A stretch of 39,620 nt of DNA from a virus (IMGVR_UViG_3300009080_000978:1-39620), one strand, 5' to 3'. Shown: positions 2,729 to 28,657, counted from the stretch's first letter. Numbers and translations are program-made. Notes: generated by a model not told the origin, from the letters alone.

Positions 2729-2851
2729 ATGCTCCCAATTATCTATAAATGTGAAAATTGTGAGAATATTTTTTATGGAGACAACTTTCAAGACTTAGAG
2801 TCTAAAATATTTCTCCACTATGAGCAGTTCTCCGCCTGTATTGCTGTATGA
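2729..2851 (+). CDS. Possible CxxC micropeptide, 40 aa
   Basis: A 40-codon frame starting MLPIIYKCENCENIFYG, with CENC near residue 8 and a later HYEQFSAC segment, consistent with a one-knuckle zinc finger (C, C, H, C). A TATAAT box lies just upstream. It overlaps the 3' end of the leftward glycosyltransferase by 50 bp, in a different frame on the other strand, which lowers confidence. The plausible zinc-ligand order is the main reason to list it. Confidence 0.45.
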   Translation: MLPIIYKCENCENIFYGDNFQDLESKIFLHYEQFSACIAV

Positions 2852-3731
2852 GACCTGCATGCTCCCACCACTCTTCTGGCTTTTTAATTGCATTAACTAT
2901 CTTAAAGGGTCCCGTGTTGTATAGATATGCTTGAAATATTCTTGGACTCACATACGGAAGATAATCCATTTGATAATCCCAGGTATCTACGAAATGTCTC
3001 TCATGAGAGGCTGGAGCTGTCAGGTATACAGCATCGTAATACTTCTTTGGGCTATGAATAATTATTTTATAACCAACCATCAGCCTTTTTGTCCAACCAA
3101 GCATAAAGGTTTCATAAGATAGAAATGGCTCCTCCTGGTCATTCTGCCAGTACTGCCCCCATCTAATTTCCCTTGCGAACTGCCCCCTAGTAAAAAACAT
3201 TCCAGCCTGCAAGTAGCTGACTTCTGGCAAGCTCCCCTTGTCATACTTTGCAGGATACCATTCTTTCATAACTATCCTTGGGAATTCATTTGAGTCGTCA
3301 ATCCCCATTCTAAGCTTCTCGTAGTGGCCCTCTTCAAGGTTTTCATGAGTTTCCTCAGCAACTATAATGCTCTTATATTCTTTTTGTGACTCCAGAATAC
3401 GTATAAGATTAGTGTCCCACGACTCTTCTAGATCTGTATGCGAGTCTATGCTTAGATAATAGTCCTCATTTGCGTAAAGTTTATTTAACAAGTGACGAAG
3501 CCTATAGACCCCAGGCCTATTCTCTGGATGAATGGAAAGGATCCTAAGCTGCTTAGAATTAAACTCAGACAGGTCTGGCATAGGGATTTCATCATCGTAC
3601 TGAGCACCTACCGCAACGTAAATTCTTTCTGGGTAATCTGCATTATTAAAAATTTGCTTAAGAGTGTCTAGTAATACGGGGTCCCTGTAGGCAGGTATCA
3701 TTACAAAAATGGTTGATGGCTTTTCCTTCAT
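2802..3731 (-). CDS. GT60-like (Skp1 GlcNAc-transferase type) glycosyltransferase
   Basis: This 309-aa protein starts FVMIPAYRDPVLLDTL, the first strand and loop of a GT-A fold, and carries DYYLSIDSHTDLEESWD, the signature around the metal/nucleotide site of the family that includes the Skp1 GlcNAc-transferase (PF11397, GT60). It should transfer a sugar from a nucleotide donor to a hydroxyl acceptor in the cytosol; no signal peptide or membrane segment is present. The start is leaderless (TGGTATAAT, 7 nt). A clear paralogue lies at 4443-5369 and a more distant relative at 27075-27905. The acceptor is unknown. Confidence 0.82.
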   Translation of the reverse strand: MKEKPSTIFVMIPAYRDPVLLDTLKQIFNNADYPERIYVAVGAQYDDEIPMPDLSEFNSKQLRILSIHPENRPGVYRLRHLLNKLYANEDYYLSIDSHTDLEESWDTNLIRILESQKEYKSIIVAEETHENLEEGHYEKLRMGIDDSNEFPRIVMKEWYPAKYDKGSLPEVSYLQAGMFFTRGQFAREIRWGQYWQNDQEEPFLSYETFMLGWTKRLMVGYKIIIHSPKKYYDAVYLTAPASHERHFVDTWDYQMDYLPYVSPRIFQAYLYNTGPFKIVNAIKKPEEWWEHAGLIQQYRRRTAHSGEIF

Positions 3732-3738
3732 ATGGTTA

Positions 3739-3747
3739 ATTATACCA
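3739..3747 (-). promoter_or_regulatory. Extended -10 promoter, leaderless (TGGTATAAT)
   Basis: Minus-strand TGGTATAAT ending 7 nt before the ATG at 3731. It is back-to-back with the plus-strand promoter at 3757-3765. Confidence 0.75.
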
Positions 3748-3756
3748 TGGCATGGG

Positions 3757-3765
3757 TGATATAAT
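3757..3765 (+). promoter_or_regulatory. Extended -10 promoter, leaderless (TGATATAAT)
   Basis: Plus-strand TGATATAAT ending 7 nt before the ATG at 3773; the opposing -10 box lies 15 bp away. Confidence 0.75.
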
Positions 3766-3772
3766 GTAAGAC

Positions 3773-4459
3773 ATGAAAGAAAATCTTATAACTTTAATAG
3801 ACAACGATACACTTAAGATAACCTATTTCGACAAAGACTCCGATGACATATTCCTTGCATTTTCCAGCACCCCGAGGCTGGCACAAGGTGAAGAGGTTGC
3901 CATAGAGCAATTCATAGGAACACTGAGTCATAATGAAAAGGCTGCGATATTTATTATTGACAAGCAATCCTCTTATGGTAACAAGATAGACATGAATGAA
4001 ATAGCAGATCTCATTGCTCCAATAGTTAATGGCAGAAAAACAAATGCTATCGGGTATTGTATGGGAGGCTTCTTGGCAATAGATATGTCAAGGTATATTA
4101 AGATAGAGTCTGTGGTTGCCATAACTCCACAGTGGAGCATTCATCCTAGCATTCTTCCAGAGGATAGCTACTTAAATGTATTTACTAAGAGAGTGGATTC
4201 CTGGAAGATAGTAGACCTGTCTCAGTCATTCAATAACATCACAAACTATTTTATATTTAATAGCAATGATGGTGACGATCAATACCAGATAAGGTTCTTC
4301 CCAAGTATAGACAACCTTAAGATCTTTGAGTTTGGTCCTGCTTTTGGGCATGATCTACCAGAGGCCTTAAACGATGGAACTCTAGAGTCTCTGATGCTGG
4401 ACTGCGTATACGGCAATAGTGATTTAGTCTCAGGGTTTATCTCTAGTTATTACGAATAA
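3773..4459 (+). CDS. Alpha/beta hydrolase with Cys nucleophile (dienelactone-hydrolase-like)
   Basis: The 228-aa protein has a nucleophile elbow G94-Y-C96-M-G-G98, the form found in dienelactone hydrolases, where Cys replaces Ser. A candidate acid lies at D166/D168 (NSNDGDD) and the catalytic His at H193 (FGHDLPEAL), in the right order. The fold is otherwise a small alpha/beta hydrolase without lid insertions or signal peptide. It probably cleaves or transfers an ester. A leaderless rightward gene between two GT60-like genes, it overlaps the end of the second by 17 bp. A role in esterification or de-esterification of the same glycan is inference. Confidence 0.7.
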   Translation: MKENLITLIDNDTLKITYFDKDSDDIFLAFSSTPRLAQGEEVAIEQFIGTLSHNEKAAIFIIDKQSSYGNKIDMNEIADLIAPIVNGRKTNAIGYCMGGFLAIDMSRYIKIESVVAITPQWSIHPSILPEDSYLNVFTKRVDSWKIVDLSQSFNNITNYFIFNSNDGDDQYQIRFFPSIDNLKIFEFGPAFGHDLPEALNDGTLESLMLDCVYGNSDLVSGFISSYYE

Positions 4460-5369
4460 TCCTATCAAATACTGATCTTGCCATTAAGAACTTCTCCCCC
4501 ATGCCCTGCAAGTTCCAGTAATCTTCTGGCGACATGGCGGCATTCTTAATAGCATACTTAGAGTAATCGTTGTAAATATAAGCCAACGACATTTCGTACC
4601 AGGTTGCAGGATGCTCTGAAACCGCATCTGAGCTAAACCTATTTATAATCTTCTGGCTATCCTTTGGGGTTGAGTCCCACACTTCTTTCAGGTACCTGGC
4701 ATCATTCTGCCACAGTATTCTTTCATTAATCTGAAACACCCGATAGCCAGACATAATAAGCCTATAGGAAAAATATGTTATTTCCATGGTCGTATGAGAA
4801 TACTCGTCAAACCCGACTTCTCTAATATATCTGGCTGGCAAAAAGATCTGACCAACCCTGCCGAAGTATATCTCATGATATGCTGAATAGTCATTTGACT
4901 TGCCATTTACGGGTATTGGGTGTAGCACTGAACCAATCTCATGCTGCTCAATGGTAGGATCAAAGTATGATGTCATGACACCATCGCCATACACCTCTAA
5001 TGGAAAAAGGATTACCTTATCAGTCTTAGTCTGCTCGGATATGTCTCTGTAATATTTTATTAGCTTTGTATCCCAGCCATCACTAAATAGATAGTGAGAG
5101 TCAATCTGAAGGTAATAATCCTCACCATCGTATAGATCTCTGGATATGTTATACCTTATTCTTACAATGCCTGGCCTGGTATTTGTATCATAGCTGGTAG
5201 TCCTAAGATTGTTACCAGAAAACTCAGATAGATCTGGTTCATCTCTATACTGCAGGGCAACGCCAAAGCTAAGCCTATCTGGATTGTCTGCAGACGATAT
5301 GGCACTACGAATTGTATCGGAAAGGCTTGGATCATTGTATGCAGCAATAGATATAAATATTGTTTGCAT
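4443..5369 (-). CDS. GT60-like glycosyltransferase, paralogue of the 2802 gene
   Basis: The 308-aa protein opens with IFISIAAYNDPSLSDTI and carries DYYLQIDSHYLFSDGWD, the same landmarks as the 2802-3731 protein and the Skp1 GlcNAc-transferase family. Between them, PGIVRIRYN matches PGVYRLRHL of the paralogue. It is cytosolic by sequence. The ATG at 5369 lies two nt after the TAG stop of the 2OG oxygenase gene, so the two are probably co-translated. The pair suggests that a hydroxylated product could serve as glycosyl acceptor, as in Skp1 prolyl hydroxylation followed by GlcNAc transfer; that analogy is inference. Confidence 0.82.
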   Translation of the reverse strand: MQTIFISIAAYNDPSLSDTIRSAISSADNPDRLSFGVALQYRDEPDLSEFSGNNLRTTSYDTNTRPGIVRIRYNISRDLYDGEDYYLQIDSHYLFSDGWDTKLIKYYRDISEQTKTDKVILFPLEVYGDGVMTSYFDPTIEQHEIGSVLHPIPVNGKSNDYSAYHEIYFGRVGQIFLPARYIREVGFDEYSHTTMEITYFSYRLIMSGYRVFQINERILWQNDARYLKEVWDSTPKDSQKIINRFSSDAVSEHPATWYEMSLAYIYNDYSKYAIKNAAMSPEDYWNLQGMGEKFLMARSVFDRIIRNN

Positions 5370-5371
5370 GG

Positions 5372-6028
5372 CTACTCAAAGAATAGGATGTCTGACGGGT
5401 TCTGGCCTTCTTCTATTGAAGGCGTAGCTAGTTTTGGATCTATGCTATCCTCTACGTCAAACCCAAAGAACATTGGCATAGTGTATCTATCACCAGAAAC
5501 AAGATGATGAATACAATGCCTATATCTACTTGGAAACATTAGGAGGTCCCCTGCTTTTGGCTTTATCTTTAGATTATCAAATTCTGGGAAAGCTATCTCC
5601 CCACCCAAATACTCGTCTGTAATATAGGCAATTGCTGTAATGTTATATCTATAGAATCCACCAGCGATTGCAGGAAGCCTTGACGGCGTTTCTGCATCAC
5701 TATGAACTGACATAGACTCACCTATCAGCATATCCCACTTGACGAGATGGGCGGGTTGTCTAGGCTCCTCAAGCATCTTTATGCCATATGGCTCTGAGTA
5801 GTTGCTCAGAACCTCTGCATAGGCTGCCTCCTGGCAAGACACAAGCATTTCTTTTACAATATCACTGTCTATCTGGTCACTATAAAAATTCCCAAATCCA
5901 TAAACATTTCTTAGATAGGATGCTAGGGTATACAGGTCTGACCCATGAATAAAGTTTTTTACATGAGTGATACCAGCTCTAGAGTAGCCTATCTTATTGT
6001 ATTGCTCCATATAGTTTTCATAGCTCAT
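5372..6028 (-). CDS. 2OG-Fe(II) oxygenase (prolyl-4-hydroxylase-like), 218 aa
   Basis: The double-stranded beta-helix core is visible: iron ligands H109-S-D111, distal His in YRHCIHHLVSGDRY (H174 or nearby) and R181 for 2-oxoglutarate. GGEIAFPEF and KPKAGDLLMFPS are typical of P4H-like phage oxygenases. It should hydroxylate a protein or small-molecule substrate using O2 and 2-oxoglutarate. It is a leaderless gene whose promoter overlaps the end of the thyX region. It is followed after two nt by a GT60-like glycosyltransferase. One of six such oxygenases in the window; substrate unknown. Confidence 0.85.
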   Translation of the reverse strand: MSYENYMEQYNKIGYSRAGITHVKNFIHGSDLYTLASYLRNVYGFGNFYSDQIDSDIVKEMLVSCQEAAYAEVLSNYSEPYGIKMLEEPRQPAHLVKWDMLIGESMSVHSDAETPSRLPAIAGGFYRYNITAIAYITDEYLGGEIAFPEFDNLKIKPKAGDLLMFPSRYRHCIHHLVSGDRYTMPMFFGFDVEDSIDPKLATPSIEEGQNPSDILFFE

Positions 6029-6034
6029 AATTAT

Positions 6035-6043
6035 ATTATATCA
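6035..6043 (-). promoter_or_regulatory. Extended -10 promoter, leaderless (TGATATAAT)
   Basis: Minus-strand TGATATAAT, 6 nt before the ATG at 6028. It overlaps the stop of the upstream thyX gene. Confidence 0.75.
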
Positions 6044-6757
6044 TTCTTCGTATAGCAAGCTGATTGTTTCTGGGAATGCTTCTTTAGTTAGTTTAAGAAC
6101 TGCCTCTGCATACTTTTGGATCTCCCATTGTGCATCATGCTCTAGCCTTTGATCTAGGAATGTTAGGATACCCTGTAGGGATACCGTCCATCGCCAGCGG
6201 ACATACATTCCATATGCTGGTAGAAATAGTCTAGCAATCTCTGGAGCAACGCCATCATTCATTGCATCGTGGTATGCCTCTGTACCCTGTACTACCGTCT
6301 CGCATAGCCTCTGGAAGTGCTTAGCTCCAAGCTCTTCATCCAGTGGCTCTCCCGAGCCCTGCTTGCTATTCTCTGGCTTGCTACGCCACTCTCCTGGTAA
6401 TGGGATATAAAACTTCTCATCTTCTGTGATGTAACGTCTAGATGACTCGTTCCATCCGTTCTGTTCATCTACATGTGTAGAAGACACAGCATACTTCCAC
6501 CACTGCCTCGCAACAAATAGCGGAGCGTATACCTCAAAAGTTGCAGCTGCGTGTCTGAACGGGCTGGTGTGCTGCTCCCTTAGCAAAAACTTCAGTAGCT
6601 TTGCATCTCGCTCTTCAAAGGTGGTAGTCTCTTTATCGTATGACACTCTGGCAGCATTAACTACTGATACGTCATCTCCAAGTACGTCTACCAGCCTTAC
6701 GTAACCTTCATCAAGCACACTTACTGGATCTGGTGTAGTTCTAATATAAGTTGTCAT
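6041..6757 (-). CDS. thyX: Flavin-dependent thymidylate synthase ThyX (variant signature)
   Basis: ThyX makes dTMP from dUMP with FAD, NADPH and methylene-tetrahydrofolate. Family features are clear: NAARVSY near the N-terminus, HTSPFRH, RQWW, NESSRRY, RLFLP and FLDQRLEHDAQWEIQKYAEAV near the end. The usual RHRxxSxNExSxRY signature is altered: RQWW is followed by KYAVSSTHVDEQNGW before NESSRRY, so the RHR part is lost and several residues are inserted. The start is set at the ATG at 6757, which overlaps the preceding TGA (ATGA); a TTG four codons upstream is less likely. It is translated with the DUF1599-like gene. Confidence 0.93.
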   Translation of the reverse strand: MTTYIRTTPDPVSVLDEGYVRLVDVLGDDVSVVNAARVSYDKETTTFEERDAKLLKFLLREQHTSPFRHAAATFEVYAPLFVARQWWKYAVSSTHVDEQNGWNESSRRYITEDEKFYIPLPGEWRSKPENSKQGSGEPLDEELGAKHFQRLCETVVQGTEAYHDAMNDGVAPEIARLFLPAYGMYVRWRWTVSLQGILTFLDQRLEHDAQWEIQKYAEAVLKLTKEAFPETISLLYEE

Positions 6758-7041
6758 TCGTTTGGCCAATCTCCATCTAGCACCATCAATCCAATGGCAC
6801 TGTAGTTCATCATATCTAGAAAGCTATCTCTTAGGCTTTCGTTTTCTGGTGTAGCTCCAGAATCAACAAGGTTATTAATCCTAGAAAGCTTATCGTGCAT
6901 TCGTACACGCAACCCATTTACTGGGCCGCCTGGACTAAAGGCAATGTTTTTTGGACCATAGTCCATCTGCTTCTTAACTAGTACATCTTTTGCTTCACTA
7001 TAGTACTTCTGTGCCATGGCCTCGAAGTCTTTAATCTCCAT
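6754..7041 (-). CDS. DUF1599-like nucleotide-metabolism protein, 95 aa
   Basis: The sequence KQMDYGPKNI, then RMHDKLSRINNL, then SLRDSFLDMMNYSAIG follows the pattern of DUF1599 (PF07659, nucleotide modification associated domain 1), an all-alpha family related in layout to MazG/dUTPase-type pyrophosphohydrolases. It is helical, with conserved acidic residues that could bind metal. It is coupled by ATGA to thyX, which supports a role in dUTP/dTTP handling. An AAGGA site lies eight nt before the ATG, and the gene overlaps the end of the epimerase gene by 11 bp. Confidence 0.75.
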   Translation of the reverse strand: MEIKDFEAMAQKYYSEAKDVLVKKQMDYGPKNIAFSPGGPVNGLRVRMHDKLSRINNLVDSGATPENESLRDSFLDMMNYSAIGLMVLDGDWPNE

Positions 7042-7978
7042 TATATTCCTTAGCTATATCATTTATTATTTGCTCTAAAGAATACTGTGGCTCCCACCCA
7101 GTATCATTAGTTATCTTTTTAGTATCTGCAACTCTTCTGTCGGTGTCTTCGTATCCAGGACCATAGGCGGTATCGTAATCTATCATAGAAACAGTTGACA
7201 TTGATCTTGTCTGCCTAATCACGGTGTCTGCAAGGGAGAGGATTGACACTTCTTTGCTACCGCCAATGTTGTATGCCTCACCAAACCTGCCAGACTGTGT
7301 GAGCATATAGATAGCCCTCACTGTGTCTAAAACATGGCAGAAAGATCTAGTCTGAAGCCCAGAGCCATATACTGACAAAGGCTTATTCTCCACGGCAGCC
7401 TTTACAAATCTAGGAAGGACCATTCCGTATTCCCCAGACTGCCTTGGACCAACAGAATTAAAAATTCTTCCAGTAACAAATCTTAGGCCCCTATCTTTTT
7501 GATAAAAGTTTGCAAGGGCCTCCCCAATAGCTTTAGACTGTCCATACGACCATCTAATTACATCTGGTGATCCAAATACGCTGGCTGTAGTCTCTTTAAA
7601 TGGCACTTCTGGGCTTGTACCATATGCCTCAGATGTGGATGCAAAAAAGATTGGCTTATCCAACATGGCAGCGACACGAAACATCGTGTCTGTATTATTA
7701 ATATTATTATTAATAAGCTGTGGAGTCTTGTCCATTGTATTTTTAACTCCAACAGTTGCAGCCAAGTGAATTATCCAGTCAGCATGCTGTGCCTCAACTA
7801 TCATAGCTTCGTAGTTAGCCATGTTTATTGGAGCCAGCCTAACACCAGCAGATAACAGATTGTCTACCTTACCAGTAGACATGTCATCTACAACGACTAC
7901 CTCATGCCCCTCCTCTACCAACAGGTTAGACAGATGAGATCCTATAAACCCAGCACCACCAGTTACTAAATATCTCAA
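7031..7978 (-). CDS. NAD-dependent sugar-nucleotide epimerase/dehydratase (extended SDR)
   Basis: The 315-aa protein has the NAD-binding motif TGGAGFIGSHL at residues 6-16, the catalytic Y145-x3-K149 in WSYGQSKAIGE, and the Ser/Thr in FFASTSEAYG. GRIFNSVGPRQ and the C-terminal half match UDP-glucose 4-epimerases and UDP-glucuronate decarboxylases. It acts on UDP- or dTDP-sugars in the cytosol. The start is TTG at 7978, overlapping the TGA of the upstream dehydrogenase (TTGA), so the two are co-translated. A dehydrogenase followed by an SDR suggests a UDP-glucuronate-type route to UDP-xylose or UDP-galacturonate, but the exact sugar cannot be read from sequence. Confidence 0.87.
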   Translation of the reverse strand: MRYLVTGGAGFIGSHLSNLLVEEGHEVVVVDDMSTGKVDNLLSAGVRLAPINMANYEAMIVEAQHADWIIHLAATVGVKNTMDKTPQLINNNINNTDTMFRVAAMLDKPIFFASTSEAYGTSPEVPFKETTASVFGSPDVIRWSYGQSKAIGEALANFYQKDRGLRFVTGRIFNSVGPRQSGEYGMVLPRFVKAAVENKPLSVYGSGLQTRSFCHVLDTVRAIYMLTQSGRFGEAYNIGGSKEVSILSLADTVIRQTRSMSTVSMIDYDTAYGPGYEDTDRRVADTKKITNDTGWEPQYSLEQIINDIAKEYNGD

Positions 7979-9066
7979 TACAGCCTTTCACAATCTATCG
8001 TAGGAATCTTTGGCAGCAGACTCTGCTCTAAAGTTTTATGTCTGTTCACAATTATAGCAAGGTCGTATCCATCTGTCAATGCCCTTGATGTCTCGTCACC
8101 GTACCGTTTTATAACATCGTCATGCCAGTCCACTGAAGCACCAGAATCTCTAAGCATTGCGATTAACTCCAATGCCTTTGACTCCCTTACATCGGCAGTG
8201 TCAGCCTTATATGTTATGCCAACCACCAAAATCTTTTTACCGCTTAGATTGCCCAGCTTACGCATAGCCAGCTCATGTATAAACTGTATACCGTCTGCAT
8301 TAGCCATCAGAGCTGCTTCTAACGTCTTTATAGGTAGCCCTAATCTATTTGCACTGTCAATCAGGAATTGTGGGTCTACGGGTATACAGTGACCTCCCAC
8401 GCCAAGTCCAGGCTTAAATGGCATAAAACCATATGGCTTAGTGGATGCCAGCTCTATAACATTAGAAGCCTTCACGCCAGATCTATACAGGAACTTGCTC
8501 ATTTCATTTACAAAAGAAATGTTAAGTAGTCTAAATGAGTTCTCTAAAAGTTTAGCTGCTTCGGCTTCTTCTGGTAAATTAGCTGTAATAACCTCTTCGC
8601 ACATTGAAGAGTAAAACTCTGTTGCAATTGCAGCAGCCGTTGGCCCAATGCCCGACACAATCTTTGGAGTGTTTGTAATAGTATAACTAGAGTTGCCTGG
8701 ATCAATTCTCTCTGGTGAGTAAGCTACGAATACATTACGATCCTTATACTCTTCGGCTACCAAGGAGGTAAAACCAATAGAAACTGTAGACTCTATACAT
8801 AGCAATGCACCAGCCTTAATGTGCTGCATTACACGATATATTGCATCAGATATGCCAAGGTGTCCGTCTGCTGGGGTTGGCGTGCAGATTAGAACTATGT
8901 CGGATTGAGATATGTCATCATACAGGGTACTAGTCTTGTACTCAGATACCGAATCTAATACCGCCTGTGAAGTATCAATCCCGATAACAGAATGACCAGA
9001 GGCAACTGCTGCTAAAGAAATCTCTCTACCAACGTACCCCTGGCCAATTACTGCTACTGAACTAAT
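7975..9066 (-). CDS. UDP-sugar 6-dehydrogenase (UDP-Glc/GlcNAc type), apparent AUU start
   Basis: Three regions of the UDP-glucose/UDP-ManNAc dehydrogenase family are present: an N-terminal Rossmann segment (VAVIGQGYVGREI), CIESTVSIGFT in the middle, the catalytic Cys in GVGGHCIPVDP, and a C-terminal NAD-like domain with ILVVGITYKADTADVRES. It oxidises the C6 hydroxyl of a UDP-hexose to a uronate. The first ATG in frame is at 8829, which would delete the Rossmann fold. The frame is open upstream to a TAG at about 9082, with no ATG, GTG or TTG. The best start is ATT at 9066, eight nt after GAAGG, giving about 363 aa. A sequence error or a programmed frameshift from the upstream 66-aa gene are alternatives. 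Confidence 0.85.
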   Translation of the reverse strand: MSSVAVIGQGYVGREISLAAVASGHSVIGIDTSQAVLDSVSEYKTSTLYDDISQSDIVLICTPTPADGHLGISDAIYRVMQHIKAGALLCIESTVSIGFTSLVAEEYKDRNVFVAYSPERIDPGNSSYTITNTPKIVSGIGPTAAAIATEFYSSMCEEVITANLPEEAEAAKLLENSFRLLNISFVNEMSKFLYRSGVKASNVIELASTKPYGFMPFKPGLGVGGHCIPVDPQFLIDSANRLGLPIKTLEAALMANADGIQFIHELAMRKLGNLSGKKILVVGITYKADTADVRESKALELIAMLRDSGASVDWHDDVIKRYGDETSRALTDGYDLAIIVNRHKTLEQSLLPKIPTIDCERLY

Positions 9067-9067
9067 A

Positions 9068-9268
9068 CTAATATCCTTCGTCGTGCTCTACACCATGCTT
9101 GTTGTCAATATATTTGTGTGCTTTACGTAATGCAATTCCTCGTGTAAGTAGAAATGTTGCGGCAACGAATACTGCATTCCAAAAGAATTCTGCAACTACA
9201 TGCTCTAATCCAAAAGTAATCTCAATAATACCTTCTAGGAAGGTCTCACCCTCGTGTCCGTGTTCCAT
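9068..9268 (-). CDS. Small single-pass membrane protein, 66 aa
   Basis: An acidic N-terminus (MEHGHEGETFLEG) is followed by one hydrophobic helix (residues about 29-47, FFWNAVFVAATFLLTRGIAL) and a basic, His-containing C-terminal tail. Family unknown. It has the best sigma-70-type promoter in the window and a purine-rich ribosome site (GAGAGAGAC). It is followed one nt later by the probable AUU start of the UDP-sugar dehydrogenase, so it may act as the leader gene that brings ribosomes to that start. Confidence 0.75.
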   Translation of the reverse strand: MEHGHEGETFLEGIIEITFGLEHVVAEFFWNAVFVAATFLLTRGIALRKAHKYIDNKHGVEHDEGY

Positions 9269-9629: not shown

Positions 9630-10232
9630 CTAACAAGATATGTCTACATTTAGATTTATCGTTGCCCTGTAGTCATGTTTTGAGGGGTGCTCCCATGTAT
9701 GGAAGTAGTCACCGTTAAAGAGAAGTGCACCACCGCCAACAGGAGAAAACCTCTTTAGCTCCTCTAGATCCTCTTCTGTGTGGAAATGGCCGTCTACTTT
9801 CTGTGTAAATAGAATTGTATCTCCATCTGAGTCGTTTAGATAGTATATAAAAACAAAATGCTTATTTTCATTTCTTAGATCAACGTGTGGTACTGTTGGC
9901 CTGGTGTCTAGGCTAGTAAAAGATATGTTTGTCCTAGTCCTAAATACCTCATTAAGAACTAGGCTGTGCTTTTCAGCAAACTTTAAAAATATAGATTTGG
10001 CTATTGGCCTCATCATATCTGCTTCATGTATGTTGTTGCTTCCAGCAACCATGATTGGTCTGTCTAGAAACCTATCTCCAGGAATGCCAGTATAGCCATC
10101 TGTTGCAGCCCCAATGCTATGGGTCTCAAAGTGAAAGTCAGCGTCCCTAGTCTGCATTAAGATCTCATGAGCCTCATCTTTAGAAAGAAGCTCAGTATCA
10201 TAAATGTATATTGGGAGATTGCTTTCAATCAT
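9630..10232 (-). CDS. 2OG-Fe(II) oxygenase, 200 aa
   Basis: Iron ligands H116-V-D118 and H178 (GDYFHTW) and the 2-oxoglutarate Arg R189 (HDYRATINLNV) are in the right order and spacing. YYLNDSDGDTILF and GGGALLFNGDYFH closely match the oxygenase at 15351-15923, so these two form one subfamily, distinct from the P4H-like group at 5372, 22333 and 26406. It probably hydroxylates a small molecule or peptide. The gene follows the 10239 gene by 6 nt with a weak ribosome site; regulation is probably by readthrough. Confidence 0.85.
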   Translation of the reverse strand: MIESNLPIYIYDTELLSKDEAHEILMQTRDADFHFETHSIGAATDGYTGIPGDRFLDRPIMVAGSNNIHEADMMRPIAKSIFLKFAEKHSLVLNEVFRTRTNISFTSLDTRPTVPHVDLRNENKHFVFIYYLNDSDGDTILFTQKVDGHFHTEEDLEELKRFSPVGGGALLFNGDYFHTWEHPSKHDYRATINLNVDISC

Positions 10233-11355: not shown

Positions 11356-11364
11356 ATTATATCA
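11356..11364 (-). promoter_or_regulatory. Extended -10 promoter, leaderless (TGATATAAT)
   Basis: Minus-strand TGATATAAT, 6 nt before the ATG at 11349; it overlaps the stop of the carbamoyltransferase gene. Confidence 0.75.
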
Positions 11365-12984
11365 TAACAATATAAGCTTAGAGATCTCTGGGCAGTATAG
11401 ATACTTAATACCAGACTCCTTGCAAGTTCTGATTGCATCATCCATATTTTCTACCAGGGTGTCTCCAGCCAGATTAAATGATGTATTCAATAGCATTGGG
11501 ATTCCAGTGATATTATAGAATGATTCGATTAACTCATAGTAGTTACTGTTTTGATCGGCTGATACCGTCTGAATCCTTGATGTTCCATCGTTGTGCTGTA
11601 GGGCAGGGACGACATCCCTCTTGTCTGGCAAAGTCTCGACGGCGAACATCATCTCTGGGCTGCTAGAGAGTGTTTGCATGTCAAACCAGTCGGGGGCACG
11701 CTCCTCTAGAACTGAGCCAGCAAATGGTCTGAAGTATTCTCTTTTCTTGATAGTATTAACAACATCTCTTCCATCTGGATCTCTTGGGTCATAAAGAATT
11801 GACCTATTACCTAGGGCCCTAGGCCCTGACTCAGCCCTTCCCTGGTAGATAGCCACTACATTTCTCTCAGATAGCAGCTTAGCTACATGGTCTGACGTCA
11901 CGTCAATGGACTGGGTGTCTGAGAAGACCTCGTGGTTAGCCTGTGATCCAAGATACATCCTATTGATTGGCATAGATGGCTTGTTGGTTAGCTTCTTATA
12001 AAGCCACTGGGCTGCCCCGATAGCGGTACCAGAGTCACTGGAGTTTGGCTCTACATAGAAGTTAATGTCTGGAAACTCTTTAAGATACTTGTAGTTATTG
12101 ACACAGTTAAGAAAGTACCCACCGCTAAGGCAAATATTTTTGCTGCCAGACATCTCTATAGTTTTCTTAATAAGGCTAATAGATACATCCAAAGAATCAT
12201 TCTGTACCCTATATGCCAAATTCTCATCCGAGATATCGCTATTCAAAATTTCTGGGTTGGCAACTCCATCAACAAATGCCCTGGGATCTGATGGATTATC
12301 AACGCCATAGGCAGATAGGCCCATAACTTTTCCTGCATTATGATAAGAATTAAATATTTTAATGCCTGCTGCACTGAACATTTTACCTAAACTCAAATTG
12401 GAGGGGTATATTGTATAGGGGTAATTTAGTGGCAGCCTCTCAGAGCATTTGGTGAAGTGTGGCATGCTGCTTAGCTCAATCGCAAGCTCCCCGTATCTCC
12501 AGGATGAATGCTGAGTAATCAAGTTTTTATGAAGAGTCTCAATATCTTTAGAGGCATGGTAGATAGTTTCGGATTCCCTGTAAAGATTCTCTCCGTCATA
12601 GAATGCTTGGCCTGCTCCGTCTGCCACCAAGATCCCAGCATCTTCAAAGCCTGAGTTATAAAATGCAACGCTTGCATGTGCCAAGTGATGATCTCTGAGC
12701 CAGTATGCCTGGTACTTCTCATTGTTACTAAGATGCTTAGTCTTACCAATTGATACAAGTAGGTATGAAAGCAGGTCTCTGGCATTTAGCTCATATGGGA
12801 AGGCACCAACAAAAACAATATGCCGTGGGTCATGGAGTCTCATGGCCTTGGCAAAGCTATTTATGAAACCAGTAGTGTGCTTCTCGTGTGTAATCCTTTC
12901 CTCTTCTTGGTAAAAGATTACTGAACCATCCTCGATAACGCATACGCTACCGTCATGCGACATGTTTACGCCAAGGACCTTCAT
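11362..12984 (-). CDS. Carbamoyltransferase (NodU/CmcH family), 540 aa
   Basis: The N-terminal kinase-like (ASKHA) domain carries VLGVNMSHDGSVCVIEDG and HHLAHASVAFYNS (metal/phosphate-binding His at about 99-103), followed by ADGAG. The C-terminal domain has GRAESGPRALGNRSILYDPR and LLNTSFNLAGD, hallmarks of PF02543/PF16861. It makes carbamoyl-adenylate from carbamoyl phosphate and ATP and puts the carbamoyl group on a hydroxyl of a sugar or similar acceptor. Full length for the family. It overlaps the PIG-L gene by ATGA, and is the last enzyme of a four-gene cassette. A second, shorter family member lies at 22989-24428. Confidence 0.92.
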   Translation of the reverse strand: MKVLGVNMSHDGSVCVIEDGSVIFYQEEERITHEKHTTGFINSFAKAMRLHDPRHIVFVGAFPYELNARDLLSYLLVSIGKTKHLSNNEKYQAYWLRDHHLAHASVAFYNSGFEDAGILVADGAGQAFYDGENLYRESETIYHASKDIETLHKNLITQHSSWRYGELAIELSSMPHFTKCSERLPLNYPYTIYPSNLSLGKMFSAAGIKIFNSYHNAGKVMGLSAYGVDNPSDPRAFVDGVANPEILNSDISDENLAYRVQNDSLDVSISLIKKTIEMSGSKNICLSGGYFLNCVNNYKYLKEFPDINFYVEPNSSDSGTAIGAAQWLYKKLTNKPSMPINRMYLGSQANHEVFSDTQSIDVTSDHVAKLLSERNVVAIYQGRAESGPRALGNRSILYDPRDPDGRDVVNTIKKREYFRPFAGSVLEERAPDWFDMQTLSSSPEMMFAVETLPDKRDVVPALQHNDGTSRIQTVSADQNSNYYELIESFYNITGIPMLLNTSFNLAGDTLVENMDDAIRTCKESGIKYLYCPEISKLILL

Positions 12985-15130: not shown

Positions 15131-15382
15131 ATGTCAATATTTGCAGAGTTTCAAGCTTATAAGGAGAGTAAGGGTTGCCATGACTGTGAGGTCAGATACC
15201 CCCACTATATCCTTGAATTTGATCACCGCCCAGAGAAAAAGAAGGTGGACATAGTCTATCGTGTTTTGAAAAAATATGGTCGGGAAGCTGCTTGGCAGGA
15301 AGTAAGTAAGTGTGACGTTGTTTGCTCCAACTGCCATAAGAAAAGAACATATGAAAGAGAGCAACGTGCTAATAGACGATAA
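15131..15382 (+). CDS. Small HNH-like nuclease, 83 aa
   Basis: The protein carries a zinc knuckle GCHDC near residue 15, then FDHRPEKKK (the H/D of the HNH core) and CDVVCSNCHKKRTYER (second knuckle with CxxC and the final H). That is the small HNH layout found free-standing in many phages; it should nick or cut DNA. A TTG two codons upstream is open but the ATG at 15131 fits the -10 box. The oxygenase gene begins inside its last 32 bp. The pair forms a rightward island between leftward operons. It might be a homing or packaging-associated nuclease. Confidence 0.8.
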   Translation: MSIFAEFQAYKESKGCHDCEVRYPHYILEFDHRPEKKKVDIVYRVLKKYGREAAWQEVSKCDVVCSNCHKKRTYEREQRANRR

Positions 15383-15923
15383 CTTTTTGCCAGATGCCGC
15401 CGTCAGGGACATATCTGATAGGGTAATTATAAATGGTTTAGACATTCCATGGACCCTTGCATATCGAACAGATACCCCAAATGGGCCATATGCAGTTGAT
15501 GACCAAAATGTTACCCAGAGCTATCAGTTTGCAGCAGGACTTAGAGAGGGTACTCAGGCCTATGAATATTTTATGCAGGTCTTTAGGGCCTTCACACTGA
15601 AGCATAGGATAGAGGTTAATAAAATTATCAGAGTTAAGCTAAACTGGTTGCCCAGATCTTTTTCTTCTTCTGGGTATCACACCCCCCACGTTGACTTTGA
15701 CTCTGAACATAAAGTATTCCTGTATTATATAAATAACTCTGACGGAGACACTGTATTTTTTAATGAAACGCTGTCCGAACAGGTGCCAGAATCATTTAGC
15801 GAAGATGTTAGGGTTAACCCTGTAGCAGGCAGAGGAGTAGTTTTTAATGGCAACGTATACCATGCATCATCATCCCCAGTAAATAATGAGTTCAGGTGTA
15901 TTCTAAATATTGACTTTGCTTAA
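15351..15923 (+). CDS. 2OG-Fe(II) oxygenase, 190 aa
   Basis: Iron ligands H113-V-D115 and H171, 2-oxoglutarate Arg R182. YYINNSDGDTVFF and GRGVVFNGNVYH make it a sister of the 9630 oxygenase. The ATG at 15351 lies inside the HNH gene in another frame; an upstream ATG at 15312 is open but would place the start deep in the HNH gene. There is no good Shine-Dalgarno site, so reinitiation or coupling is likely. Its stop overlaps the stop of the convergent glycosyltransferase by 4 bp. Confidence 0.85.
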   Translation: MKESNVLIDDNFLPDAAVRDISDRVIINGLDIPWTLAYRTDTPNGPYAVDDQNVTQSYQFAAGLREGTQAYEYFMQVFRAFTLKHRIEVNKIIRVKLNWLPRSFSSSGYHTPHVDFDSEHKVFLYYINNSDGDTVFFNETLSEQVPESFSEDVRVNPVAGRGVVFNGNVYHASSSPVNNEFRCILNIDFA

Positions 15924-22301: not shown

Positions 22302-22332
22302 GCTGTCTCCTTATTGTTTGTATGTTATAACG

Positions 22333-22992
22333 TTATTCTGTGCCATCTGACATTCTAGGTTTTTCTAGATGGTGATACCAATGAGGCATAGAGTACCTTG
22401 TTCCACTAGTGATTGGCATAATCTCGTGGACATAAAGATAGTTTGATGGGAAAAATACAATACTTCCAGCCTCTGGCTTAATCTTTACACCAGACTGCCT
22501 AAACTCAATCTCTCCACCATCGTAGTTATCATTTAGATAGCTGACAGTAGAAATTAGCCTGCTGCTTACCCCCAGATCCTGGTGTGCTGGGAGGTGACCC
22601 CCATCGTCCTCATACCTAAGAATACCATCAAGTGGCTCTTCTGACTTTACAGCCGCTTTGGCCCAAGGATATAGCGACTCGGAATAGTGCTTAAATGCCT
22701 CATCCAGTGAGCCATATAGAGAATCTGCAATTTGAATTAGGTCATCCCTATAGAAGTCATCATTTTGAATCTCATTATGGCGGAATATATAGAACTTGTG
22801 GTTAAATGGCTTTGGCATGTGCGGATCCCACCAGGCCTCCCATGGGCGTACTGCTGTCCAATTATCGCCATGCTCTCCGCTATCGTACCTATCTGATAGT
22901 TTCTTTACAAGATCTACAATATACTCTGTTCTTGGTATGATATTCTTATAGTACACTAGCCCTAGGTCTAACACTTCAAACTCTAAACTCAT
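22333..22992 (-). CDS. 2OG-Fe(II) oxygenase (P4H-like), 219 aa
   Basis: Iron ligands H137-Q-D139 and H189, 2-oxoglutarate Arg R199; YLNDNYDGGEIEF and KPEAGSIVFFPSNYLYVHEI are typical of the P4H-like subfamily shared with 5372 and 26406. The start is the ATG at 22992, whose ATGA overlaps the stop of the carbamoyltransferase; an open TTG-type extension upstream is a shadow. Co-translation suggests that one product is hydroxylated and carbamoylated in sequence, which is inference. Confidence 0.87.
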   Translation of the reverse strand: MSLEFEVLDLGLVYYKNIIPRTEYIVDLVKKLSDRYDSGEHGDNWTAVRPWEAWWDPHMPKPFNHKFYIFRHNEIQNDDFYRDDLIQIADSLYGSLDEAFKHYSESLYPWAKAAVKSEEPLDGILRYEDDGGHLPAHQDLGVSSRLISTVSYLNDNYDGGEIEFRQSGVKIKPEAGSIVFFPSNYLYVHEIMPITSGTRYSMPHWYHHLEKPRMSDGTE

Positions 22993-24428
22993 CTTATCAC
23001 TTTCTGCCCGTAGGTCTTTTCCCATTCAATTATATCATGTTCGTCATTTAAAAGGGGCTGACCTTTTATGTTAAGGCTAGTATTTAGTAGGACTGGGACC
23101 CCAGTCTCTTTATAGAATAAGGTTAGTAGCCTGTGTAATCCTGGGTGCTGGTGCCTATTTACTGTCTGTACCCTAGATGTTCCATCAACATGAACCACGC
23201 TTGGTATCAGGTTTGGCTGCTTACACCTAACCGTATACTGCATATATGGCGAAGTGGCTGGTAGGTCAAACCATTCAGATGCGTGCTCTTCTAAAACTAC
23301 TGGTGCAAAGGGTCGGAATAGCTCCCTCTTCTTAATTCTATTAACCTTGTCCTTTATCTCTGGATCTCTTGGATCAGCTAGGATGCTCCTATTTCCTAAA
23401 GCTCTTGGGCCATACTCTGCCCTGCCGTATACAACTGGTGCAACACCATCGCTTAGAATTGCATTAAGGGCTGACTCTGCTGGATACCTAGACTCTCCTA
23501 GATTGTAACCCAAGTAGGGATTTCTCCAGTTAAGGTGTTTGCCATAAGCGGCTGCTGCTGCTCCAAGTGAGCTACCAGCATCTCCTGGGTTTGGCATAAT
23601 CCATACGTCTGCGAACTGACTCCAGAGAGAAGTGTTAGCCGTAGCATTAAGAGCACATCCGCCCATGAAAACTAGGTTATGCTTGCCAGTCTTTTTCTTG
23701 GCAAACTCCATAAACTCATATAGTCTATCCTCGTATACCTTTTGAACAGCTGCTGCTATATCGTACTTGTTAACGTCCGTCACCCCAATGTCCCAGTCTA
23801 CAATGCCCTTGTGAAAATTATATTTTTGACCATTGATTGTGCTGAAGTATTCAGATACTTTCTTATAAAACCTTTTTGGCTTTCCATATGATGCCATGCC
23901 CATCATAATGTATTCCTCTTCGTTAGGCTTTAGGCCAAGTAGCTGGGTAAAAGCTGAGTAAAATAGTCCAAAGCTAAAGGGATAGTTTTTCTTATAGACA
24001 CTCTTGATCTTATCACCTTCTCCTACCCAGATGCTGGAGGTGTTCCACTCTCCTATAGCATCAAGAACTACGATTACTGCGTCATTAAACCTGCTTGTAT
24101 AGTATCCAGCAGCAGCATGTGAATAGTGGTGGCTAAAGTATTTTACTGGAACACTCTGTAGGGCTGGGTGGTCTTTAAACTTTGGTTTTCCCCCACCAAG
24201 ACCACCGCTGATTGCAATCCTGGTTTTCTTTAGCATTGGGTGCTCGTAGTATGCTATGAGGTCAGGCTGGCCGTACTTAAGTGCATCATCAATTAAAGAG
24301 TCATTGACAAACCAGTCGTTCTTTTCTTTACTGTACCTCTCCGCATGCCCTGCAAATAAGATTATGTTATCTTTTATCAGGGTTACTGAAGCGTCGTGGG
24401 TAGTCTCGTTTACCCCCAAGATGATCAT
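22989..24428 (-). CDS. Carbamoyltransferase (NodU/CmcH family), 479 aa
   Basis: The N-terminal ASKHA domain has ILGVNETTHDASVTLIKDN and FSHHYSHAAAGYYTS, and the C-terminal part has GRAEYGPRALGNRSILADPR and LLNTSLNIKGQP, as in the 11362 protein. It is about 60 residues shorter than that paralogue and at the low end of the family, yet keeps both domains, so it is probably active. The ATG shares its A with the TAA of a 28-codon upstream gene (TAATG). Its acceptor may differ from the first enzyme. Confidence 0.9.
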   Translation of the reverse strand: MIILGVNETTHDASVTLIKDNIILFAGHAERYSKEKNDWFVNDSLIDDALKYGQPDLIAYYEHPMLKKTRIAISGGLGGGKPKFKDHPALQSVPVKYFSHHYSHAAAGYYTSRFNDAVIVVLDAIGEWNTSSIWVGEGDKIKSVYKKNYPFSFGLFYSAFTQLLGLKPNEEEYIMMGMASYGKPKRFYKKVSEYFSTINGQKYNFHKGIVDWDIGVTDVNKYDIAAAVQKVYEDRLYEFMEFAKKKTGKHNLVFMGGCALNATANTSLWSQFADVWIMPNPGDAGSSLGAAAAAYGKHLNWRNPYLGYNLGESRYPAESALNAILSDGVAPVVYGRAEYGPRALGNRSILADPRDPEIKDKVNRIKKRELFRPFAPVVLEEHASEWFDLPATSPYMQYTVRCKQPNLIPSVVHVDGTSRVQTVNRHQHPGLHRLLTLFYKETGVPVLLNTSLNIKGQPLLNDEHDIIEWEKTYGQKVIR

Positions 24429-25468: not shown

Positions 25469-26416
25469 CTACTCTGAATATTTCCACTTTTCATATGCAA
25501 AGTTAGCATAAAAGTCTTGCTCCGCAATGCCTGGGTGCACTACATCAAATGCATTAAAGAAATATTCTTCTAGCTCATGCCCCTTATTTGCCTGGGCAAA
25601 CTGCATCTTATGCCGTAGCCTATCATTTTCAGCAAATCTGTAGAATCCTTTATGCCAGATTAGTCTTGGGTCGTTCACATGGCCTTGTATCAGATCATGT
25701 GGGTCAGCGTCCCTGCTAGGACTGCCCTCTAGAAATACATGCCTATCCCAGGAAAACATTATAAGCTTTATATTTTTTTCCTCGCAGAGAAGTTCTAGGG
25801 CGAGGTGCATTGGTGCGACAACACGATCTAATACACTAAGTTCTATGCCAGCATCGAGGGTCCTTAGAAGGTCTGGAAAGTTAATAAATAAAACGTCTGG
25901 AGCACCGTATAGCTCAATATATTTAAATATCTGGTGATAAATGTTTAAGTGGTTTGCACCTGGAATAGCTATATTGTAGTAGCCAGATACGCTTTGTTCT
26001 GAGGCTATTCTATCATAAACCTTTTTGGGCCAAGTGTGCTCTTCTATCATTCCATCACCAAAAGTTACGGAGCAGCCAGCAAACAACATATGCATTCCAT
26101 TGTGACTACTAGAGAATTCGTCTGACCTGAGACCAGAAGAATTAATAGAGAACTCTGAGTCATAAGATCTCCCCACTGACTCTAAATTTTTATTAGTAAA
26201 GTATACATTAAACGGAGAAACTGTTGCTGGTTGAAGTAGCATTAGATCATTCACCCCTGACTTATGCTGATGGGCCAATGAGAACTTTTTAGCAATATAC
26301 GCAGTCAACTCTTCTTTATAAGGGTACCACTCTTCATATGAAAAACCAAATTGACTATAGAACTCAGTAACTTCTAGTGGTGGATCAAGGAGTATTTCGT
26401 CTGCATCAATTCCCAT
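25469..26416 (-). CDS. SGNH-hydrolase-like protein B, 315 aa
   Basis: A paralogue of the neighbouring gene: MLFAGCSVTFGDGMIEEHTWP (nucleophile block), IPGANHLNIYHQIFKYI (second block) and FDVVHPGIAEQDFYA (Asp/His block) align with the same stretches of protein A. The N-terminus is MGIDADEILLDPP; an ATG 23 codons upstream lies inside the oxygenase gene. The ATG at 26416 overlaps the oxygenase stop by 11 bp. The pair arose by tandem duplication and has diverged outside the catalytic blocks. Confidence 0.78.
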   Translation of the reverse strand: MGIDADEILLDPPLEVTEFYSQFGFSYEEWYPYKEELTAYIAKKFSLAHQHKSGVNDLMLLQPATVSPFNVYFTNKNLESVGRSYDSEFSINSSGLRSDEFSSSHNGMHMLFAGCSVTFGDGMIEEHTWPKKVYDRIASEQSVSGYYNIAIPGANHLNIYHQIFKYIELYGAPDVLFINFPDLLRTLDAGIELSVLDRVVAPMHLALELLCEEKNIKLIMFSWDRHVFLEGSPSRDADPHDLIQGHVNDPRLIWHKGFYRFAENDRLRHKMQFAQANKGHELEEYFFNAFDVVHPGIAEQDFYANFAYEKWKYSE

Positions 26417-27044
26417 AACCAGGTTCGCCGCTCTCTGCCTGCTCAATAGCGTGTGGATGTCTGTGTGCCTCCCAGTCATTTGCATTTGTCAAAACTCTGC
26501 CGCCAATGAAGTCTGGGTCTGCATGGCCTGGCTTACTCGTATGCATATATAGGCATGTCCTTCTAGTGCCAGAGGTTACCTTCGATACTCCATGGATGTA
26601 CTCGGATCCAGCACTTGGGAAAAAAACTGCAGAGTACTTATTGGGAGAAATTTCCACACCTTGATTGGGGAAATATATTGTTCCCCCCTCGTACTCATCA
26701 TTTAGATATATGATCGTACTCCATTCAATAAAGGGTTCTGGATCCTGTGCGTCTTCATGCAGGCCTCCCATGCTCCCTGGATTCCATACGGAGCCAAATG
26801 ACTTGAATACATATATAGGGTTAAGAAAACCGTTTACCTCTTTGTGAACCTCATTAGACATTTCTCCATACTTTATCTGAAGGTCTAAAATTCTTTTATT
26901 GTATGGAAAGGCTGTGCCGCCAAACCTATCGGCGTAGTATGGTGGGTAGGGGTTCACCTCTGATGGCCTGTCCTGCTCTTGCATCATTATTGCGGCATCT
27001 TCTGGAGTAATAAAGTTTTCTATTACGTGTATTCTATGGCTCAA
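26406..27044 (-). CDS. 2OG-Fe(II) oxygenase (P4H-like), 212 aa
   Basis: Iron ligands H96-E-D98 (GGLHEDAQ) and H151, 2-oxoglutarate Arg R161 in SGTRRTCLYMH. YLNDEYEGGTIYFPN and SPNKYSAVFFPSAGSEYIHGV are typical of the P4H-like group. The start is TTG at 27044, seven nt after a perfect AGGAGG, so a non-ATG start is well supported. Its C-terminal 40 residues, rich in His, Ala and Asp, extend past the core fold. Confidence 0.85.
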   Translation of the reverse strand: MSHRIHVIENFITPEDAAIMMQEQDRPSEVNPYPPYYADRFGGTAFPYNKRILDLQIKYGEMSNEVHKEVNGFLNPIYVFKSFGSVWNPGSMGGLHEDAQDPEPFIEWSTIIYLNDEYEGGTIYFPNQGVEISPNKYSAVFFPSAGSEYIHGVSKVTSGTRRTCLYMHTSKPGHADPDFIGGRVLTNANDWEAHRHPHAIEQAESGEPGYGN

Positions 27045-27065
27045 TGCTCTGCCTCCTGTAATAAT

Positions 27066-27074
27066 ATTATACCA
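27066..27074 (-). promoter_or_regulatory. Extended -10 promoter (TGGTATAAT)
   Basis: Minus-strand TGGTATAAT immediately after the stop of the glycosyltransferase gene; a leader of about 15 nt holds AGGAGG for the oxygenase. Confidence 0.65.
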
Positions 27075-27905
27075 TTAATAGATAGCTTTTACTAGACCTA
27101 TAAACCTATCTTGTTCCACATCGTTAAATTTAAGGTCATAGGGGTTGTATAAAACATCATCTATTTGGTATGGTAGCTTTTTGGGCAATCTATCAGATAA
27201 GCCGTGAAACTCTACCCAGCCAGAATACTCTTCTGACAGCATCATGTCTATGCAACTATTATAGTTGTGCTCTGTCGAGAATGGCACGTAAAGATTTTCC
27301 ATTGTCCTGTCACCAAAATCTTTCTTCAGAATGTTGGATGGTGCACAGACGACATCAACATTTTTTATAAATGCATCCATTGATAACTTCTCTGCCTCGC
27401 CAAAATACTTTACATCATCTGGATACTTCAGGTTTCGAAGGGTTTCAGTCCTGGCGAATATAAAGTTGGTGTTTATATAGTTAGTGGTCGCAAATCCATC
27501 CGAGGCTATGACCTCCTGACGAAGGAAATACTTATCGTGAACCATGAGCTTGCCACTACTAAAGCCAGACACTATCTTATTATTTTCTGATATATACCTA
27601 ATTAAAGTTTTATCCCAGCCATCAGCAAGCTGTATGTCATCAGAAATAAGCATGGAATATGGTGCTACAATGTTTTCATCATTTAGTCCACCTGCCTTGT
27701 AAGATGTTGGGCTTAAGATTTCATCCCAAAAAATATGCCTGTACTGAATATTGTGAAGCTTAGAAAGCTTTTCTTTTCTATCCATAGGATGCTGGTCATA
27801 GACGGTAATGTGGATCTCGCTAGATGCAGATTCAAGTAGGCTTTCCAGCACGTCAGCTAGATTTTTCCCCTTGTATGAGTAAATTACTATGCTAATATCT
27901 GTCAT
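27075..27905 (-). CDS. GT-A fold glycosyltransferase, 276 aa
   Basis: SIVIYSYKGKNLADVLESLLESA (first strand and helix of a GT-A fold), PYSMLISDDIQLADGWDKTLIRYI (metal-binding SDD with the same DGWD-T-L-I run as in the 4443 protein) and NTNFIFARTETLRNL support a nucleotide-sugar transferase related to, but diverged from, the GT60-like pair. The ATG overlaps the TGA of the upstream gene (ATGA). The acceptor is unknown. Confidence 0.78.
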   Translation of the reverse strand: MTDISIVIYSYKGKNLADVLESLLESASSEIHITVYDQHPMDRKEKLSKLHNIQYRHIFWDEILSPTSYKAGGLNDENIVAPYSMLISDDIQLADGWDKTLIRYISENNKIVSGFSSGKLMVHDKYFLRQEVIASDGFATTNYINTNFIFARTETLRNLKYPDDVKYFGEAEKLSMDAFIKNVDVVCAPSNILKKDFGDRTMENLYVPFSTEHNYNSCIDMMLSEEYSGWVEFHGLSDRLPKKLPYQIDDVLYNPYDLKFNDVEQDRFIGLVKAIY

Positions 27906-28657
27906 GACTTGCCCAAGCCCCTAAATATTTTCTTTCTCCAAGCAAACCACTTATAGTATCCGTGAGCCCTTGTTCTTCTTTTTTCGGCTGCAAAGGTATG
28001 CTTCTCAATTTCTTCGTGAGAATCTAAAATCTGCATTTGCCAGTTGTCTCTTTTAAATGGAATAATCTGAAATAGTGGGGTGCCCTTTGGTATGATTCCA
28101 CGGAACCCCCTCTTTAGAAAGAAAGCTACGAATACTGGCAAGCCCCAAATGTCGGATTCAACTATGCCAGACTGAACAGTAAATGGTAGGTCGTACCTAT
28201 TCATTGGGTGCGTTATTAATACAGAATGCCCTGGGGGCGTTTCGTAGTACCATGCCATCTTAAATCCATAGTGTATTGGGTGATGACCCTCTGGCACTGG
28301 CAGCTCGATGGTTGGCCTGTGATCTACAAGCATCATATCGCTATCCCACCACAAGATTGGCTTGCCGTCATCGTCAATATCGACATGAAGATCACCGCTT
28401 AGAACGTACTGATAGCCAGCAGTCATGGCGTCCAAAAATGGCGGACACTGCTTTGTTGCAACAGTAGCACCGTCTGATCCAATAAAGTTTACAGGGTATA
28501 AGGTTTTTTCACTATTAGACCTATTATGTTTTGCAAGGCTTTTGTACCATTCTGGAACATGCCAAGTAGATGGCTCTGGTGGCAGAAGGCCGATTTGCCT
28601 ATGGTCTGGAGTGCTTGGAACAAAGGTGATTTTTAAAAAATCTTCTTCATCACTCAT
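27902..28657 (-). CDS. Phage protein of unknown function, tandem family member 1 (251 aa)
   Basis: It shares with its upstream neighbour a W-Y-K-x-L start segment (VPEWYKSL), a CPPFLDAMTAGYQYVLSGDLHVD block, GHSVLITHPMNR, and GFRGIIPKGTPLFQIIPFKRDNWQ. This resembles a family found in marine and freshwater phages and some bacteria; no activity is known to me. It is predicted mostly beta-stranded and soluble. ATGA coupling joins it to the genes on both sides. Confidence 0.72.
   Translation of the reverse strand: MSDEEDFLKITFVPSTPDHRQIGLLPPEPSTWHVPEWYKSLAKHNRSNSEKTLYPVNFIGSDGATVATKQCPPFLDAMTAGYQYVLSGDLHVDIDDDGKPILWWDSDMMLVDHRPTIELPVPEGHHPIHYGFKMAWYYETPPGHSVLITHPMNRYDLPFTVQSGIVESDIWGLPVFVAFFLKRGFRGIIPKGTPLFQIIPFKRDNWQMQILDSHEEIEKHTFAAEKRRTRAHGYYKWFAWRKKIFRGLGKS

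Follow-up and report, generated by a model that had tools for sequence, protein, structure and literature searches.

The oxygenase-transferase locus

The window, by which we mean the whole stretch of DNA analysed here, is a 39,620-base IMG/VR fragment (IMGVR_UViG_3300009080_000978, virus record, 39.6 kb), and this study concerns two adjoining genes within it, encoding a prolyl-hydroxylase-like oxygenase and a GT60-type glycosyltransferase (GT), that may act together in modifying a phage protein. The window terminase is ~55% identical to that of Streptomyces phage Gilson and its kin (Stanwilliamsviridae), and a WhiB-like gene was recognized by eye, from which the source is, judging by sequence, an uncultured actinobacterial phage. 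Three open reading frames (ORFs), all on the minus strand, were confirmed at 2802-3731, 4443-5369 and 5372-6028, and are referred to here by their first coordinate. The stop codon of oxygenase 5372 and the ATG of transferase 4443 are only 2 nt apart, without an evident Shine-Dalgarno sequence (TTTGAGTAGCCATG), and an earlier note on this DNA was therefore right in stating that the oxygenase is translated just ahead of the transferase. The two transferases, 2802 and 4443, are not contiguous: a plus-strand gene for an alpha/beta-hydrolase-like protein (3773-4459; weak DLH match, 0.0044, below cut-off) lies in between; it is convergent with 4443 and shares 17 nt with the 3' end of that gene.

Both enzymes resemble protein-acting families

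The product of 5372 (218 aa) is a predicted 2-oxoglutarate (2OG)-Fe(II) oxygenase (PF13640, E=1.2e-6, 29.8 bits, cut-off 27), in which the HxD...H...R motif is intact, with a metal triad of H109, D111 and H171, invariant across 14 oxygenases from the window and its relatives, and with R181, in the stretch SGDRYTMP, for 2OG. A profile of GT-linked oxygenases matched solved prolyl 4-hydroxylases (P4Hs) best (Bacillus anthracis P4H, 2.9e-21), and reached TET-like enzymes last, at only ~7e-4. The predicted fold of 5372 (predicted local distance difference test, pLDDT, 77) was nearest to the viral collagen prolyl hydroxylase of chlorovirus PBCV-1 (vCPH; Z 17.2, 16% identity), likewise a viral enzyme, with P3H1 and PHD2 tied, as structures within 1 Z of vCPH were counted as ties. 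By profile and by predicted fold, the nearest solved relatives of 5372 are prolyl hydroxylases.

Both transferases lie far above the curated PF11397 cut-off of 21 bits, 4443 (308 aa) with E=8.1e-19 and 68.7 bits, and 2802 (309 aa) with E=3.2e-22 and 79.9 bits, and both align at the DSH metal motif (QIDSH, within DYYLQIDSH, in 4443, and SIDSH in 2802). A search of PDB sequences with the GT profile gave no match. The model of 4443 (pLDDT 85) adopts a GT-A fold that superimposes on GalNAc-T2 with Z 21.8 over 255 residues at 3.2 Å; polypeptide N-acetylgalactosamine (GalNAc)-transferases (GT27, mucin-type O-glycosylation) cover almost its full length and are its best structural match across the catalytic domain, the next family reaching Z 16.9. 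However, 4443 shares only 12-15% identity with GT27 enzymes, lacks their lectin domain and belongs to a different sequence family. The window transferases group together (92/92) with those of loci L022, L006, L015 and L016; in L022 and L006 an oxygenase is adjacent. What the earlier note had called a P4H-like oxygenase and two GT60-like transferases is borne out by these family matches, motifs and folds. Since 5372 and 4443 resemble prolyl hydroxylases and polypeptide GalNAc-transferases, respectively, protein substrates are indicated, although fold does not prove function.

The neighborhood also invites a reading in terms of DNA hypermodification, in which the oxygenase would oxidize a pyrimidine, a GT or carbamoyltransferase would decorate it, and ThyX together with a DUF1599 protein would supply the nucleotide. 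A gene for ThyX, the flavin adenine dinucleotide-dependent thymidylate synthase (6041-6769, minus strand; PF02511 1.5e-37, TIGR02170 above cut-off), lies directly upstream of 5372, and the window carries a DUF1599 "nucleotide modification associated" gene as well as NodU-like carbamoyltransferases. Even so, we rank this reading lowest and consider it very improbable: 5372 has no match to Tet_JBP (PF12851) at E up to 1 in a profile search, TET-like structures rank far below prolyl hydroxylases, the one close relative, described below, lacks the DUF1599 gene, and no ThyA-type hydroxymethylase was recognized among the ORFs examined.

Conservation and turnover in a close relative

The only close relative found, G001, is a single IMG/VR contig of 54 kb that is collinear with the window. 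It keeps, in the same order, ThyX, the oxygenase (61% identity), the counterpart of transferase 4443 (58%) and the convergent hydrolase (67%), so that the synteny which the earlier note had proposed to check in relatives is present for the oxygenase-transferase pair. No counterpart of 2802 occurs between the hydrolase and a thioredoxin-like gene in G001, and the proposal that this second transferase is part of the system is not supported; it is accessory and mobile. G001 instead carries another PF11397 gene (22972-23970), inserted between the orthologues of carbamoyltransferase 22989 and oxygenase 22333 (22326-22991). The window contains a second hydroxylase/transferase-like neighbor pair on its minus strand (26406-27905), consisting of a GT-A protein without DSH (27075-27905), which was found by an iterated GT60 hidden Markov model (PF00535 0.01, below cut-off), and, 30 nt downstream, a 2OG oxygenase (26406-27044; PF13640 3.2e-8); G001 has both in this order too (28069/28732). 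Given the missing 2802, the other insertion in G001 and this additional pair, GT60-type transferases come and go, repeatedly beside oxygenases.

Linkage of the two families in phages and bacteria

Beyond these two genomes, GT60 genes were collected with profiles built here, and adjacency was judged by permutation. Among the first phage loci, an oxygenase was the immediate neighbor in 10 of 32 usable dereplicated clusters (4.05 expected, p=0.002); pooled with a validation set of more distant phage clusters, which was kept in, the count is 10/49 against 5.1 expected (p=0.01), a real but modest enrichment, from shuffles that leave relatedness in place, and one that is partly due to oxygenase-rich, cyanophage-like contigs with arrays of up to ~10 oxygenases. 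A preliminary count of adjacency with Pfam only, giving four tight pairs with the oxygenase upstream against ~2.5 from a rough gene-order expectation made by hand, was unconvincing alone and was superseded by our own profiles and permutations. Scans for individual proteins yielded little: one contig with 5372, two with the oxygenase of L025 and none with transferase 2802, and XacN1 was the only cultured phage to match the GTs.

Bacteria give clearer and stronger support for the link than phages. In the SAR86 genomes checked (~1 Mb each), the single PF13640 gene per genome is divergently adjacent to GT60, and in Pseudoalteromonas rubra, with three PF13640 genes in ~5.7 Mb, one is in the gene following GT60. 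Two proteobacterial proteins join the families in opposite domain orders: L125 combines 2OG (2.5e-14), GT60 (1.6e-65) and a TTL domain, in that order and all above cut-off, while L099 has GT60 followed by a 2OG domain that is below cut-off. Together with the retention in G001 and the phage counts, the bacterial adjacency and the two fusions make the pairing in relatives non-random. The oxygenase is one of several GT60 partners: among the remaining proteobacterial GT60 proteins seen, the majority carry a fused methyltransferase and some a SPASM radical SAM domain.

Several observations touch on these partners. In P. rubra (L087:4992-9267), GT60 is followed by a 934-aa GT2-PqqD-2OG protein, whose PqqD domain hints at a peptide-recognition mode, and then by a protein ending in a poly-Pro/PPTTF repeat. 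A bacterial GT60-SPASM radical SAM fusion is found at L091:5001-6869. In three phage lineages (L026:2120-3154; L040:5297-6313; L045:9030-10001), the gene immediately ahead of GT60 has a Cys motif like that of radical SAM enzymes (CNAKCWFC type, by eye only).

Candidate substrates

In the phage relatives, GT60 often lies shortly downstream of tail-adhesin-like genes with PHROG tail matches, several of which encode FN3 domains, and these proteins end in a C-terminal repeat rich in Thr or Pro with a Cys-rich tip behind it. By a rule-based count, 23 of the 49 clusters have a T/P-rich linker gene no more than 4 genes ahead of GT60, against 8.0 expected, with 0/2000 shuffles reaching 23. Because transferases of relatives so often follow such genes, modification of protein, namely a virion adhesin, is favored over that of DNA. 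An oxygenase is adjacent in 4 of the 6 cases with a Pro-dominant linker and in 3 of the 17 with a Thr-dominant one (one-sided Fisher test, p=0.045, post hoc); one of the Pro-dominant contigs stops just past its GT. The sharpest case is L053, in which a PPFF/PPYF repeat without Thr or Ser adjoins a GT60 gene that is overlapped by the oxygenase gene. The Thr-rich linkers, for their part, recall the mucin acceptors of GT27 enzymes.

These data allow the two enzymes to act on proteins independently of each other, with GT60 O-glycosylating stalk Thr/Ser, the oxygenase hydroxylating something else, and their adjacency reflecting shared tail-modification cassettes. Such a division of labor agrees with the fold of 4443, which is like that of Thr/Ser polypeptide GalNAc-transferases, with the finding that most phage GT60 genes behind Thr-rich linkers have no adjacent oxygenase, and with the frequency of chance neighbors on the cyanophage-type contigs; we nevertheless regard it as unlikely, in view of the domain fusions in both orders, the sole oxygenase of each SAR86 genome beside GT60, and the oxygenase beside a Thr/Ser-free linker in L053. 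Still less probable, in our judgement, is a glycan or nucleotide-sugar pathway, in which the oxygenase would act on a small molecule or a sugar, and a polysaccharide or host-surface modification would be the product of the GT. The region of the pair does contain GT61, PIG-L, nucleotidyltransferase, uridine diphosphate (UDP)-sugar dehydrogenase, epimerase and two carbamoyltransferase genes, with the UDP-sugar genes in the same gene run as the pair, but the fold and profile matches of the pair are to protein-acting enzymes, and in relatives GT60 accompanies tail adhesins and not polysaccharide genes.

Two further features were seen near GT60 in these relatives. A small Cys-rich protein (CGCxMxxKT...CPxGkW) is encoded directly before GT60, between adhesin and transferase, in four loci (L019:9678-10001, L049:9703-9975, L053:7231-7545, L153:650-916), and just upstream of GT60 at L016:41-613 a Gly-Val repeat is followed by an intein- or Hint-like sequence (by eye).

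A proposed hydroxylation and glycosylation of adhesin stalks

We favor, at a probability of roughly 50%, the reading that 5372 and 4443 are a translationally coupled pair that modifies protein by hydroxylation and then by transfer of N-acetylhexosamine (HexNAc), with adhesin stalks as likely targets. With Fe(II), O2 and 2-oxoglutarate, 5372 would introduce a hydroxyl group into a side chain of a phage protein, proline being the most likely residue, and 4443, as a polypeptide-type GT-A enzyme, would add UDP-activated HexNAc to the new hydroxyl or to a nearby Thr/Ser; the low-complexity stalks of tail adhesins would be likely targets, and the glycan may be lengthened or diversified by transferase 2802 and the UDP-sugar genes. 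We infer the protein nature of the substrate, which is better supported than hydroxyproline as the acceptor; the latter is suggested by the Skp1 precedent, the fusions and the linker trend. It is speculative that proline is what becomes hydroxylated, that the sugar is N-acetylglucosamine and that this phage modifies a tail adhesin; the adhesin is drawn from relatives, since the window itself has none with such a stalk.

Several points weigh against this proposal. Among phage GT60 clusters, 39/49 have no adjacent oxygenase, including all 17 of the validation set, where the linker signal is weak as well (3 vs 1.4 expected, p=0.14), and the enrichment in phages is modest. Neither the window nor G001 contains a Thr- or Pro-rich adhesin that could be the substrate gene; Pro-rich candidates in the window are confined to the endolysin (21510) and similar proteins, where they are linker parts and not adhesin stalks. 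The model of 5372 has a low-confidence loop at residues 114-125, PF13640 enzymes act on diverse substrates, and the many nearby glycan genes (GT61, PIG-L, carbamoyltransferases) allow another purpose. The family linkage beyond the window is real, yet not obligatory. Accordingly, of the hydroxylation-then-glycosylation system put forward in the earlier note, the non-random pairing and the protein-acting type of the enzymes stand, but the pair as a fixed unit, with a hydroxylase always beside GT60, and the membership of 2802 do not. One candidate in the window, 32992, was set aside, having an FN3-like start and a coiled coil but no Pro-rich stalk.

The Skp1 pathway of Dictyostelium and Toxoplasma, in which the prolyl hydroxylase PhyA is followed by the GT60 enzyme Gnt1, has both enzyme families in common with the phage pair. 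We know of no Skp1 in phages or bacteria. Toxoplasma Gnt1 is classed in CAZy GT60 and depends on PhyA for its activity, which points to hydroxyproline as its acceptor (PMC6939170; PMC3515798). Unlike in the Skp1 pathway, the genes here are coupled in the phage, and fused or adjacent in bacteria, and the likeness is at the level of families, so the pair resembles the Skp1 pair in outline and cannot be assigned to that pathway. Another hydroxylase with a transferase encoded by a virus is Mimivirus L230, a lysyl hydroxylase plus glucosyltransferase whose two activities modify a viral protein one after the other (PMC9614988); it differs in being one bifunctional protein of a eukaryotic giant virus, of other GT and hydroxylase lineages, that acts on collagen lysine. 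The open-access literature yielded nothing direct on phage P4H-GT pairs or on glycosylation of Thr-rich tails.

As both families adjoin or fuse in unrelated phages and bacteria, hydroxylate-then-glycosylate modification may exist in the prokaryotic world, and P4H-then-GT60 modification of proline, documented in protists, may be older or more widespread chemistry. It is a tentative and rather doubtful extension that a Skp1-like system of hydroxyproline-O-glycosylation operates in phages and some bacteria, with coupled or fused P4H and GT60 acting on Pro-rich stalks of adhesins and secreted proteins, and GT60 alone on Thr-rich stalks. This chemistry could be tested in the small systems described here, where possible substrates, namely adhesin stalks rich in Pro or Thr, are encoded close by; the loci also suggest a possible route by which phages glycosylate, and hence vary or protect, receptor-binding tips.

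Other genes of the window

In addition to 5372, the window has at least 4 further 2OG-type oxygenases and several glycan genes. One of the oxygenases (22333-23025, minus strand; PF13640 1.2e-16) is directly adjoined by one of two NodU/Nol-like O-carbamoyltransferases (11362-12984 and 22989-24428), and two 2OG-oxygenase-like proteins (9630-10232 and 15312-15923) are named "DNA endonuclease V" by PHROGs, apparently a misannotation. Upstream of ThyX, on the minus strand, are a nucleotide-sugar epimerase/dehydratase (7031-7978; PF01370 1.2e-47, no equivalog cut-off reached, PHROG nucleotide-sugar epimerase) and a UDP-sugar dehydrogenase (7975-8829; PF00984 1.1e-26). The frame of the latter stays open up to ~9087, and the nicotinamide adenine dinucleotide-binding motif VAVIGQGYVG is encoded upstream of the listed ATG (7975-9087); judging from the sequence, the true start must be further upstream at a codon other than ATG, GTG or TTG, or there must be a sequence error. 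Finally, phrog_7084 proteins occur as two copies in the window (27902-29379) and as several paralogues in relative G002 (L133-L138), and a phrog_7084 gene lies within 2 genes of GT60 in 12/49 phage clusters, against 5.4 expected.

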